22,498 nucleotides of DNA, from IMG/VR virus record IMGVR_UViG_3300029266_002388, positions 1 through 22,498 of that record. The stretch is one strand, 5' to 3'. The stretch's first letter is position 1. Each line of letters begins with the position of its first letter. The position numbers and the translations under genes are program-made. Below the pieces are notes generated by a model. It made no database searches. It was not told where the DNA came from and saw nothing but the letters and a program-made list of their open reading frames with translations. Below, piece after piece: positions 2,016-12,865 of this stretch. Source of the stretch: a virus.

Positions 2016-2198
2016 ATGCCCCATAAAGCCTTTATCAGACATACTTACATTTATAAATGTAGTGGGTGTAAAGGTGAGTGGAAAATTAACGAAGCCGTGA
2101 ACCTAGACAGATTAAATTGTCCCCATTGTGGAGCAAACGACTACGTTGAATTTGTGTTAGAAGATCAAAGAAAAACCAATAATAACCGATGGGAATGA
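2016..2198 (+). CDS. small zinc-ribbon protein (60 aa)
   Basis: Two CxxC pairs, CSGC (residues 15-18) and CPHC (35-38), are 16 residues apart and typical of a zinc ribbon. Basic and aromatic residues flank them (HTYIYKCSGCKGEWKI). Such small proteins often bind nucleic acid or RNA polymerase, but nothing here fixes the target. The stop overlaps the next start in ATGA at 2195-2198, so the two genes are probably translationally coupled. Confidence 0.7.
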   Translation: MPHKAFIRHTYIYKCSGCKGEWKINEAVNLDRLNCPHCGANDYVEFVLEDQRKTNNNRWE

Positions 2199-2386
2199 AA
2201 GAATTAAACACATTTAGAAAATTCCTCAACGAAAACGAGGATGATGGATACGATAAAGCATCCAAAAAACTATTTGATATGACTTGGGACGAAGTACGCA
2301 GAGAAAACGATCCACGTATGAGACAAGACGTTCATGATGAAGTCCAAAAGGACGATGATAAGAATTACATTGATGATGTCCAATAA
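2195..2386 (+). CDS. small acidic protein with capsid-targeting-like N-terminus (63 aa)
   Basis: The start at 2195 is chosen over 2189 because it gives the 4-base ATGA overlap and an N-terminus (MKELNTFRKFLNENEDD) parallel to that of the next gene (MKELNDFREFLSEDEDE). Both resemble T4 capsid-targeting peptides (MKTYQEFIAEA), which gp21 protease cuts after (I/L)xE; here the candidate site is FLNE at about residues 10-13. The rest is charged and helical, with no recognised domain. It may be an internal head protein carried into the capsid. The N-terminal resemblance is visible; the function is inference. Confidence 0.6.
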   Translation: MKELNTFRKFLNENEDDGYDKASKKLFDMTWDEVRRENDPRMRQDVHDEVQKDDDKNYIDDVQ

Positions 2387-2396
2387 AGCAAATAAA

Positions 2397-2687
2397 ATGA
2401 AAGAATTAAACGATTTTAGAGAATTTTTAAGCGAAGATGAGGATGAAACGCAAGGTGGCATCGACATGGTATTACCCAGAGGTAAAGAAATCGTATTAAA
2501 AGCCGAAGACGACGACTACGAACGAGGATTACTCGTTACACTGTTAGAGGACGGTGGATATGAAGTAAAATATTGGTTTGAGAATCCTTCTAAAGTATAC
2601 CCCGTAGAGGTATTCATCGATGGAGAGTCAATTAAGAAAGACGGGAAAATTGTGAAATTAGGATTTCACCCCGAACTAGAAAAATGA
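2397..2687 (+). CDS. small acidic protein with capsid-targeting-like N-terminus (96 aa)
   Basis: The ATG at 2397 is favoured over in-frame starts from 2334: it lies 10 nt after the previous stop and restores the MKELN.FR.FL.E.ED N-terminus shared with the preceding gene. The first 15 bases of the two genes are identical (ATGAAAGAATTAAAC), pointing to a duplicated N-terminal module. A beta-rich body follows (GKEIVLKAEDDDYERGLLVTLLEDGGYEV), which is unrecognised. The stop overlaps the next start (ATGA, 2684-2687). A processed internal head protein is possible. Confidence 0.65.
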   Translation: MKELNDFREFLSEDEDETQGGIDMVLPRGKEIVLKAEDDDYERGLLVTLLEDGGYEVKYWFENPSKVYPVEVFIDGESIKKDGKIVKLGFHPELEK

Positions 2688-3307
2688 GAAAATTTAGCTT
2701 GCACGAAATATATACGGAGATACGTAAAGATGTTAAACTTATCCCAGAGGTAGGTGAAGGCACATCCAAACCTTTTCCATACAAAGAAACATCCAAAAAC
2801 GAAAGAGGATTCTCATACACAATCGACGGTGAAGTCCGTAACGAAAACGGTGAATTTGTCCTCCAGAAGGTACCAATTAAACTCCAAGGAATAGCACTTA
2901 AACAAACAATCGATCAAGACGACGGTGAGTGGACCGTGGATGGGTACGATGACAATGATGCGTACGGTAAATTCTTAAACGTATCACCCGGAACCACACT
3001 GAAAGGATATGAAGTTATATTTCAACGAAAAACAGCTAGTTTAAGTGGTGAAGGTAGTCAATTTGCTGAAGTTAACGACCGAGTCTTTATGTACCGCTTA
3101 ATGGCTACCATAAAGGAAATACTCCAAGATGAATTTGCTAAATCTAAACCCGACCTCCTTATTTACTCACCTAATAAAAAAGGTAGCGAAGCGGTTGAAA
3201 AAACAGGCCGTCATAAACTGTATAATGCGTTTATTAGTAAAGCGTTTCCAAGCGCTCGCGTATTTGTTGACGACCGTAGTGAAGAAATTATATATAAACT
3301 AAAATAA
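2684..3307 (+). CDS. conserved-looking phage protein of unknown function (207 aa)
   Basis: It starts in an ATGA overlap with the upstream gene. The N-terminus MRKFSLHEIYTEIRKD has the same spacing of hydrophobics and xE as its neighbours. Residues 44-120 appear beta-rich. The C-terminal half (about 130-195) has a helix RVFMYRLMATIKEILQDEF, then KPDLLIYSP, a KLY motif (178-180) and a final strand. From memory, this RVF...KPD...S...KLY pattern recurs in hypothetical proteins of marine T4-like phages, but I know of no assigned function. It is the last gene before an 89-base gap with a regulatory element. Confidence 0.7.
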   Translation: MRKFSLHEIYTEIRKDVKLIPEVGEGTSKPFPYKETSKNERGFSYTIDGEVRNENGEFVLQKVPIKLQGIALKQTIDQDDGEWTVDGYDDNDAYGKFLNVSPGTTLKGYEVIFQRKTASLSGEGSQFAEVNDRVFMYRLMATIKEILQDEFAKSKPDLLIYSPNKKGSEAVEKTGRHKLYNAFISKAFPSARVFVDDRSEEIIYKLK

Positions 3308-3311
3308 ATCG

Positions 3312-3327
3312 TCGACGAGTATATACG
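3312..3327 (+). promoter_or_regulatory. TCGACGAGTATATACG element
   Basis: This is the second strong match to the element at 1860-1876. It lies 70 nt before the start at 3397, against 69 nt for the copy before 1945. A similar core, TATATACGGA, also occurs within the coding region near 2709-2718, so the core alone may not be specific. Confidence 0.35.
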
Positions 3328-3384
3328 GATCTATGGAGATAGAAATACCGCTAAAGAGTCTTTTGAGGCGACCTAAAAATTAAC

Positions 3385-3393
3385 ATATTTATA
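3385..3393 (+). promoter_or_regulatory. ATATTTATA motif, candidate late promoter (copy 1)
   Basis: The nonamer ends 3 nt before the ATG at 3397. Identical nonamers precede the starts at 6462, 9107 and 12539. TATTTATA matches the T4 late -10 box TATAAATA at 6 of 8 positions on this strand and exactly when read on the opposite strand. Confidence 0.45.
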
Positions 3394-3396
3394 AAC

Positions 3397-4497
3397 ATGA
3401 AATTACTCGATATCTTACAAGAAGCTGTTACTGAATATAAAGTTAGCTACATTGTCATAAAAAATAAAAATGTAAGCAAAGGTAGTGCTTCTTACAACGA
3501 CTTAGCTGATGCTTCAAAATTCTTTGATTCACTAACAAAAGACCCCGAGCTTTATAATGCCAAATTAGAAAAAGTTTTGGGTGCTGATTCGAGTAGTGAT
3601 ATGGGAGGAGCTAAATATATGGGAGGTAAAGAAACTATTGTGTATTATTCTCATCCTGCTACTAAAGGTCGTAGTCAAGGAGGTAAAAAATTTGATGAAT
3701 TAACTCCTGCTGAACAGGATATAAGAACTTTTGCTAATTCAAGATTAGATCAACAGGAAAAACTTGGATTTACGGGAGATATTGGATTTTCAATGAATGA
3801 GGAGCGTACAAGTACAATTAGTAAAAAAAGAGCGAGTGCTGAGTTAAAGCAAAAACTTAAGGGTACACGTTCTGATGGAATGGGTAAATATACAGCTACT
3901 ATATTTGGAATGGATGGGGATAAGAGAGTTAAATTGAAAGATATGAACGATCTAAATAAATACTCTAAATTTGAACTAGGAGAATCAGTTAATGAAGATT
4001 TAAGAGGCCTAATGGCACAAGGAGAAAAAATGGCGGCGTTTGCTAATAAGCAAAGTGGATATGAAGGAGGTGTATCATCACCTGTAAGAGGGGTTTTAGC
4101 AGCTATGACAGTAGCGGGTGCACCCAATTTTGATGGAGATGATGAATTAAAAGCTTATTGGACTAGAAAATTAACTAAAGCTATCGAAACTCAAAAAGGT
4201 AAAAAATATATGAGTGGTTTGGATGAATCAGTAAACGAAGGTATAAATAAGGAGGCGCTATATATGCAAATAAGGGATATTATAGATTCTTTAGATAGTG
4301 GTGAGTCAGATGGTATTCCTCTCGACAATGAAACCGAAATGCTACTTCAACAAGAACTTCGTAGATTAAGAAAGATATTTAAATCTATGAAGGAAGGTAA
4401 AAAGAAAGATAAAGGTATTCCTGACGTTAATACTGATTTTTCTATTGGTACTGACTTTGGTGCTAATTTAGAAGAAATCTATAATAGTGTTAAATAA
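3397..4497 (+). CDS. putative processed structural/internal head protein (366 aa)
   Basis: The N-terminus MKLLDILQEAVTEY resembles a capsid-targeting peptide with a gp21-like site (ILQE|A, about residues 6-9). The protein appears modular: a beta/alpha N-terminal part (15-85), a lysine-rich middle with YTATIFGMDGDKRVKLKDMNDL (165-186), then two segments each introduced by ESVNE (residues 196-200 and 277-281), plus SMNE at 132-135. The repeated xNE junctions could be protease sites. The C-terminus is helical and lysine-rich and ends NLEEIYNSVK. No known domain is recognised. It has its own upstream motif and a TAATG overlap with the next gene. Its composition is close to that of the later structural genes. 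Confidence 0.7.
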   Translation: MKLLDILQEAVTEYKVSYIVIKNKNVSKGSASYNDLADASKFFDSLTKDPELYNAKLEKVLGADSSSDMGGAKYMGGKETIVYYSHPATKGRSQGGKKFDELTPAEQDIRTFANSRLDQQEKLGFTGDIGFSMNEERTSTISKKRASAELKQKLKGTRSDGMGKYTATIFGMDGDKRVKLKDMNDLNKYSKFELGESVNEDLRGLMAQGEKMAAFANKQSGYEGGVSSPVRGVLAAMTVAGAPNFDGDDELKAYWTRKLTKAIETQKGKKYMSGLDESVNEGINKEALYMQIRDIIDSLDSGESDGIPLDNETEMLLQQELRRLRKIFKSMKEGKKKDKGIPDVNTDFSIGTDFGANLEEIYNSVK

Positions 4498-4920: not shown

Positions 4921-4926
4921 CTAAAA

Positions 4927-4958
4927 TTTGGAGTCACAGGAAACTGTTCGTATATTTA
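4927..4958 (+). promoter_or_regulatory. host-type promoter, copy 3 (TTTG-N20-TATATTTA)
   Basis: TTTG at 4927-4930 and TATATTTA at 4951-4958 are again 20 nt apart, followed by cggggtaaggttgcgg, which matches copy 1. This is the best match of the three to the Bacteroidota -33/-7 consensus. The expected leader to the ATG at 5013 is about 45-50 nt. Confidence 0.65.
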
Positions 4959-4966
4959 CGGGGTAA

Positions 4967-4982
4967 GGTTGCGGCAGCAGCC
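4967..4982 (+). promoter_or_regulatory. leader hairpin GGTTGC-GGCA-GCAGCC
   Basis: This stem is identical to the one at 480-495 but has a different loop (GGCA against GGTG), and it sits 8 nt after the -7 element in both cases. It belongs to the predicted leader of the DUF932-like gene. Confidence 0.45.
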
Positions 4983-5012
4983 AGAATTAAATAGAAACCT
5001 AAATAATTAGTT

Positions 5013-12538: not shown

Positions 12539-12865
12539 ATGAAACAAGACGCTTTAAAAAAATTAATTAAACAAGCCGTAAAAGAAGCTATTCAAGAAGA
12601 AATAAAAGATATTCTTTTAGAAGCAGTACGTGCCCCTAAGCAAACAGTTATAGAAAGTAAACAACCCCAACAGGTAGTTGAAGGACCGTCTATGGATTCA
12701 AAAGAAAAAAGAGCGGCATATCACAACATATTAGGTGATATGCAAGAAAACTTTACATCACAAAATGTTTCTCAACCTTTTAATCCACAAGGTACTATGC
12801 CCGGTGGAGACCTTCCCCAAGGGGAATTAAATATGAATCAAATAATGGGATTAATGAATAAATAA
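12539..12865 (+). CDS. small helical protein before gp25 (108 aa)
   Basis: The N-terminal 30 residues form a strongly amphipathic helix (ALKKLIKQAVKEAIQEEIKDILLEAV). The centre is Gln/Pro-rich, followed by SKEKRAAYHNILGDMQENF and a Pro/Gly-rich, methionine-rich tail ending NMNQIMGLMNK. It begins with the late-type motif and lies 2 nt before gp25. It may be an assembly factor or a small virion protein; I do not recognise a family. Confidence 0.65.
   Translation: MKQDALKKLIKQAVKEAIQEEIKDILLEAVRAPKQTVIESKQPQQVVEGPSMDSKEKRAAYHNILGDMQENFTSQNVSQPFNPQGTMPGGDLPQGELNMNQIMGLMNK

Follow-up and report, generated by a model that had tools for sequence, protein, structure and literature searches.

In bacteriophage T4 the prohead protease gp21 cleaves after L/I-X-E (PMC9026906), and the internal proteins IPI, IPII and IPIII, which are small and unrelated, have in common a leader of about 10–20 residues that ends in (L/I)xE (PMC9026906). 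T4 also packages the ADP-ribosyltransferase Alt, with propeptides, in its head. In phage P1 (DarB/Dar) an N-terminal signal, of which 30 residues suffice, sends the delivered protein into the head (PMC9024508). Phages and conjugative elements also have polyvalent proteins, which are multi-domain and predicted to be packaged and injected; those parts of the source that are drawn on here describe no targeting leaders with prohead-protease sites between their domains (Iyer et al. 2017, PMC5512222). T4-like leaders, e.g. MKNFSSFLTE, are also found on the NMNAT, kinase and SAM hydrolase from virions of the cyanophages S-CREM2, S-SZBM1 and S-SCSM1.

The locus described here resembles that of the T4 internal proteins in its leaders and in the gp21-type protease of its relatives. 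It differs in that the bodies are without family match and the phage is of a marine immuto-like group; further, several putative leader types occur together and leaders lie also between domains, which are variant features with respect to T4-style targeting. The likeness to Alt is restricted to relatives, whose ADP-ribosyltransferase (ART)-like domain, not present in the window, keeps R, FTS and ExE and is joined to another domain by a leader-like linker. In contrast to the Dar proteins, which have no shared leader consensus, leaders are here plainly shared, and the cyanophage virion enzymes come from another phage family and are a different cargo. Of the explanations we considered, a variable head-cargo locus with T4-style capsid targeting sequences is the best reading and, judging from comparative sequence analysis, a quite probable one.

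The window, that is the whole IMG/VR record of 22,498 bases, comes from a T4-like myovirus and carries tail and baseplate genes. Between its gp6-like protein and that of Flavobacterium phage immuto the identity is 49%, and the phage, a marine, T4-like member of the immuto-like group, probably has a flavobacterium as host. A preliminary description of this DNA had pointed to four consecutive genes starting with peptides like those of the T4 internal proteins. The four genes are indeed present with these N-termini (MKELNTFRKFLNE, MKELNDFREFLSE, MRKFSLHEIYTE and MKLLDILQEA) at ORFs 2195-2386, 2397-2687, 2684-3307 and 3397-4497, and the first two do share 15 starting bases, as the record has exactly two copies of ATGAAAGAATTAAAC, at 2195 and 2397. 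The features are as follows (↓, predicted cut).

2195..2386, + strand: putative cargo gene 1 (63 aa), leader MKELNTFRKFLNE↓N; from the ORF call, the leader profile and a homologue in L193
2195..2233, + strand: 13-codon leader of gene 1 with a predicted cut behind E13; invariant P3 Leu and P1 Glu in eight leaders
2397..2687, + strand: putative cargo gene 2 (96 aa), leader MKELNDFREFLSE↓D; the same body stands behind another leader in L039
2397..2435, + strand: leader of gene 2 with a predicted cut behind E13; its DNA is 80% identical to that of the gene 1 leader, in front of unrelated bodies
2684..3307, + strand: putative cargo gene 3 (207 aa), leader and a domain with a weak GNAT-like fold; homologues stand-alone or fused, and fold comparison
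2684..2749, + strand: leader MRKFSLHEIYTEIRKDVKLIPE, predicted cut after E22 (LIPE↓VGEG); invariant residues in the alignment
3397..4497, + strand: putative cargo gene 4 (366 aa), leader MKLLDILQE↓A, confident domain at about residues 10-128 and two more modules; from shared modules and the model
3397..3423, + strand: leader MKLLDILQE, predicted cut after E9; ILQE, ILNE, ILKE and ILLE in relatives
3988..3996, + strand: internal VNE↓D site preceding the DLRGLMAQGEKM module, read from the sequence
4231..4239, + strand: internal VNE↓G site preceding the INKEALYMQIRD module, read from the sequence
4462..4494, + strand: C-terminal ANLEEIYNSVK, like the SLxEIYTEI leader, read from the sequence

All four genes thus encode a short putative N-terminal propeptide ending in (L/I)xE, the site in gene 2684 being LIPE. 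Of 2,859 ORFs, 17.7% have the same pattern with E at residues 8-14, and four of four would arise by chance with P about 1e-3, before allowing for selection, so the bare pattern is insufficient for the claim. On its own the motif is modest evidence, and it is the comparison with relatives that makes the case strong. Using a leader profile trained only on leaders of relatives' head-cluster genes, with internal Met residues as controls, gene 2195 took rank 1 among 28 window ORFs; the controls reached the scores of 2195 and 2397 at frequencies of 0.0014 and 0.0019. Gene 2684 was marginal (0.05) and 3397 was not captured (control frequency 0.61). The latter two belong to leader types other than that of the profile, and among the leader types of the window MKEL alone resembles the head-operon profile.

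Searches of the cargo bodies against Pfam, PHROGs and PADLOC gave no usable family, and the four proteins have no significant Pfam or PHROG match. In tblastn searches genes 2684 and 3397 gave no match among 50,697 phage records, and gene 2397 chance matches only. The class of T4 proteins evoked in the preliminary description includes anti-restriction factors; for the products of the four genes no sequence evidence of an anti-restriction function was found.

In relatives the locus lies upstream of a DUF932 gene, and the conserved flanks, an ATPase gene and a 4497-type gene, enclose a variable set of genes. L036 has three tandem MKELxxFRxFLxE genes, whose starts MKELHAFRQFLVE, MKELNNFREFLTE and MKELNTFRKFLAE precede unrelated bodies, and in L052 (2244-3633) five tandem small genes upstream of the DUF932 gene have the common start MKKSxLR(Q/K)(I/L)I(K/R)EE (the MKKSxLRxIIKEE type) in front of different bodies. 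Conversely, the body of gene 2397 follows a different leader, MKLEEIYTNILNE, in L039:1858-2148, and the entire gene 2195 corresponds to the N-terminal part of L193:1630-2688, where it is fused to the first domain of gene 3397. Slightly longer ATG ORFs (2189 and 2334) enclose the starts at 2195 and 2397; conserved N-termini in relatives back the latter pair. In an unbiased test of 1,697 ORFs, residues 2-13 were similar in 252 non-homologous pairs, as compared to 6-16 for internal 12-mers, an excess to which signal peptides and short true homologues contribute in part; the largest clusters include the leader types MKKSxLRxIIKEE, MIKLxDLLKE, xNFDxKKYLAEG and MKELxxFRxFLxE. These comparisons indicate that the putative leaders are interchangeable modules, one leader being used on several bodies and one body with different leaders. 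Gene 12539-12865, in the baseplate cluster, also has an amphipathic N-terminus (MKQDALKKLIKQAVKEAIQEE...ILLEAV) near the MKKSxLRxIIKEE type, and it is present in immuto and in the 164-kb relative G001 as well.

Several alleles of the locus have leaders inside longer proteins. The leader of gene 2684 has the pattern SLHEIYTEI..PE↓VGEG, and in a four-sequence alignment including L040 residues S5, E8, Y10, T11, E12, I13 and E22 are invariant. The body of the L040 protein is just 34% identical, with the leader residues still kept, and it contains two internal leader copies. In the window, L033 and L191 the protein consists of an N-terminal leader and this domain alone; in L041 and L193 the domain forms the second half of a longer protein behind an ART-like first half, and a leader, SLEEIYTEIRLNE (or RLRE), lies between this half and the VGEGTS start of the domain. 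The ART-like domain has invariant R-G, FTSF and ExE in the sequences of two relatives, in a low-pLDDT model, and it gave no Pfam match and no PDB sequence match. A cut after IYTE12 was dropped in favor of LIPE22, since this Glu precedes VGEG at the domain joint and the relatives have Leu or Ile at P3 (LIPE, RLNE, RLRE), and cleavage after LIPE22 is the likely outcome predicted from the alignment. The T4-like removable leader of the preliminary description is supported by sequence comparison for all four genes, with the predicted site in 2684 moved.

The internal position of this leader in the ART-like fusions suggests cargo polyproteins that are cut at LxE joints. Possibly, one kind of peptide acts both as head-targeting leader and as cleavable linker, so that repeated SLxEIYTEI..LxE↓ tags carry the effector domains of a one-gene polyprotein, which the prohead protease would separate before injection; we give this extension somewhat less than an even chance. 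AlphaFold models of the gene 3397 product and of the L193 homologue both have a confident fold that starts after the leader, and Foldseek found no match at E < 0.001 for either. For the 2684-type domain (residues 315-479 of the L193 homologue model) GNATs made up most of the top rows of the fold comparison at Z 6-7.6, below the caution line of 8, and for the first domain of gene 3397 no fold match stood out.

Gene 3397 has further links to head genes, as it has modules in common with head-cluster proteins of L007 and G001 whose genes lie near terL. The DLRGLMAQGEKM module comes after AVNE in L007:713-2548, and the INKEALYMQIRD module is common to gene 3397 and a 515-aa protein of G001. A counterpart of its C-terminal stretch, SLEEIYNQVSE, is internal in L035 and L036.

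Within the 22.5-kb window we recognised no gene for a portal, protease, scaffold or capsid protein, and the protease motif of this phage therefore cannot be read from it. The check that had been proposed, deriving the motif from the phage's own head genes, could be made only in relatives, where the sites match (L/I/V)xE: in 78 MCP loci the N-terminal arm of the capsid protein ends in AKQ(L/I)(V/I)xE↓ or something close to it, and LLxE or (I/L)xE is found near the N-terminus of the proteases. The MKEL-type leaders have Leu at P3 and Glu at P1 (both 8/8) with P2 free (N/S/V/T/A), and this conservation fits the putative (L/I/V)xE sites of the relatives' capsid protein and protease. Leaders are also found on small genes between the portal and capsid genes (L151 MDNFDLKKFLVEN, L160 MNNFDLKKFLTEN, L185 MENFDIKKYLAEG and L122 MVKLKNILNEV). 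With the terL-MCP region taken to begin 20 kb upstream of terL and to end at the capsid gene, and with at least one false positive (terL) among the counts, leader genes made up 10/31 in this region vs. 4/193 elsewhere in immuto (p 4e-7), and 5/32 vs. 3/169 in G001 (p 0.003). In addition, the C-terminal tail of the scaffold, RMQKLAGI, reappears as N-terminal leader on other genes, e.g. MKQQLSEELKRMQRLAGIITES, which fits binding to the core by mimicry of scaffold contacts. Genome-wide, [ILV][NST]E sites are in merely mild excess (162 vs. 127 in G001, 147 vs. 134 in immuto), and site counting alone was for this reason not used as evidence; one head-cluster protein of G001 has 8 such sites vs. 0.8 expected.

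Two neighboring genes of G001 can be mentioned here. L025:16197-16994 (G001 96197-96994) encodes a P-loop protein with a zeta-toxin family match (E 5e-17) directly after a MISLIKLLKEA leader, and its product is possibly a head-delivered kinase. The 668-aa protein of L025:16991-18997 (G001 96991-98997) has a cytidylyltransferase (NMNAT)-like start, HExxH-like and CxxC zinc-ribbon-like stretches and, at the C-terminus, an NT5C-like region; LNE/INE sites separate its parts.

Virion data are available for cyanophages, which belong to another family (Kyanoviridae) than the window phage. The S-CREM2 virion proteome determined by mass spectrometry includes a SAM hydrolase, a kinase, an NMNAT and other non-structural proteins (PMC10665884). 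The first three start MKDFDSFLEE, VKRFDAFLTE and MKNFSSFLTE (cytidylyltransferase/NMNAT), and two further virion-detected N-termini are MKDLHSFLTE and MQTFSMFFSE. A pattern covering the T4 internal proteins was found in 5/28 non-structural virion proteins vs. 1/165 undetected ones (p 2.5e-4), a pattern that was written after the N-termini were seen and that misses the MKEL leaders through its spacing; a looser leader pattern gave p 0.009. Virion-detected NMNAT-like proteins of S-SZBM1 and S-SCSM1 start MRFRQFIIE and MKSFLQFLKE. The authors of the S-CREM2 study noted that such enzymes may be carry-over (PMC10665884), and those of the S-SCSM1 study likewise warn of this; the T4-like leaders argue for true cargo. 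The S-CREM2 paper makes no mention of targeting sequences (PMC10665884), and our literature search found no paper on 'capsid targeting' in cyanophages or flavobacterial phages. In S-CREM2 a virion-detected Cas9-like nuclease (L195:7704-10313, minus strand) has an inset RFASFMAE↓A and a C-terminal KTFRDFLN, both of which are CTS-like.

The cargo locus put forward in the preliminary description has gained in support from tandem leaders on unrelated bodies, the leader swap, the head-operon leaders, LxE in the relatives' capsid protein and protease, and the virion proteins of cyanophages. According to this reading the products of the four genes are most likely loaded into the head via removable tags and probably injected with the DNA into the next host. 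The leader would bind the scaffold core of the prohead, whereby the protein is built into the head; the activated gp21-type protease would then cut behind the (L/I/V)xE with which the leader ends, freeing the mature body, which would be retained in the head and probably ejected with the DNA. With interdomain leaders such as those of relatives, a single polyprotein could bring several cargo domains into the head and be cut apart there, and the bodies may serve in host take-over or counter-defence.

Alternatively, the four proteins could be minor components of the core or scaffold that are chopped at LxE sites and expelled like T4 gp67/gp68, with no delivery. The modules that gene 3397 shares with the head cluster and its internal VNE sites agree with such a role, as does the G001 head-cluster protein rich in [ILV][NST]E sites. 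However, the locus is variable and is outside the head cluster in complete relatives, its alleles carry enzyme-like domains (ART-like, GNAT-like), and the sites are at domain joints and not throughout the proteins; we regard this explanation as rather unlikely.

Far less probable still is that the shared N-termini play no part in targeting and go back to recent duplication of genes or to a conserved element of translation start. The 15 identical bases belong to a 51-nt repeat with 80% identity (2194-2244 and 2396-2446) that then ends, and neighboring genes overlap by ATGA, both of which could be expected from such an origin. In relatives, though, the leaders vary synonymously: the invariant P3 Leu is encoded by TTA, CTT and CTC and Phe by TTT/TTC, and the use of three Leu codons means that it is the peptide that is kept and not the DNA. 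Moreover, the bodies show no relation to each other, a single body is found with two different leaders, and one leader type is also internal. The nearness of the locus to baseplate genes, together with the N-terminus of gene 12539, could instead suggest that the leader sends proteins to another part of the virion (tail or baseplate) or to the host membrane, but similar leaders are found on portal-to-capsid genes and end in the head protease motif (L/I/V)xE, and we find a destination of this kind very improbable.

A head-cargo locus of this type has implications beyond the window. The leaders offer a sequence signature with which genomes alone could suffice to list the head-delivered proteins of Bacteroidota and cyanobacterial phages, and they bear on the open doubt in the literature as to whether virion NMNAT, kinase and other enzymes of cyanophages are true cargo or carry-over. 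They also point to a store of uncharacterised early-acting proteins and put new tags on offer for loading proteins into phage heads.

A scan for sigma-70 promoters gave only chance level. An 84-nt element with the core GTTCGTATATTTACGGGGTAAGGTTGCGG is found at 436-519, 850-933 and 4923-5006, where it precedes genes 521, 931 and 5013, and it resembles a promoter and leader region of the Bacteroidota kind (TAnnTTT box).
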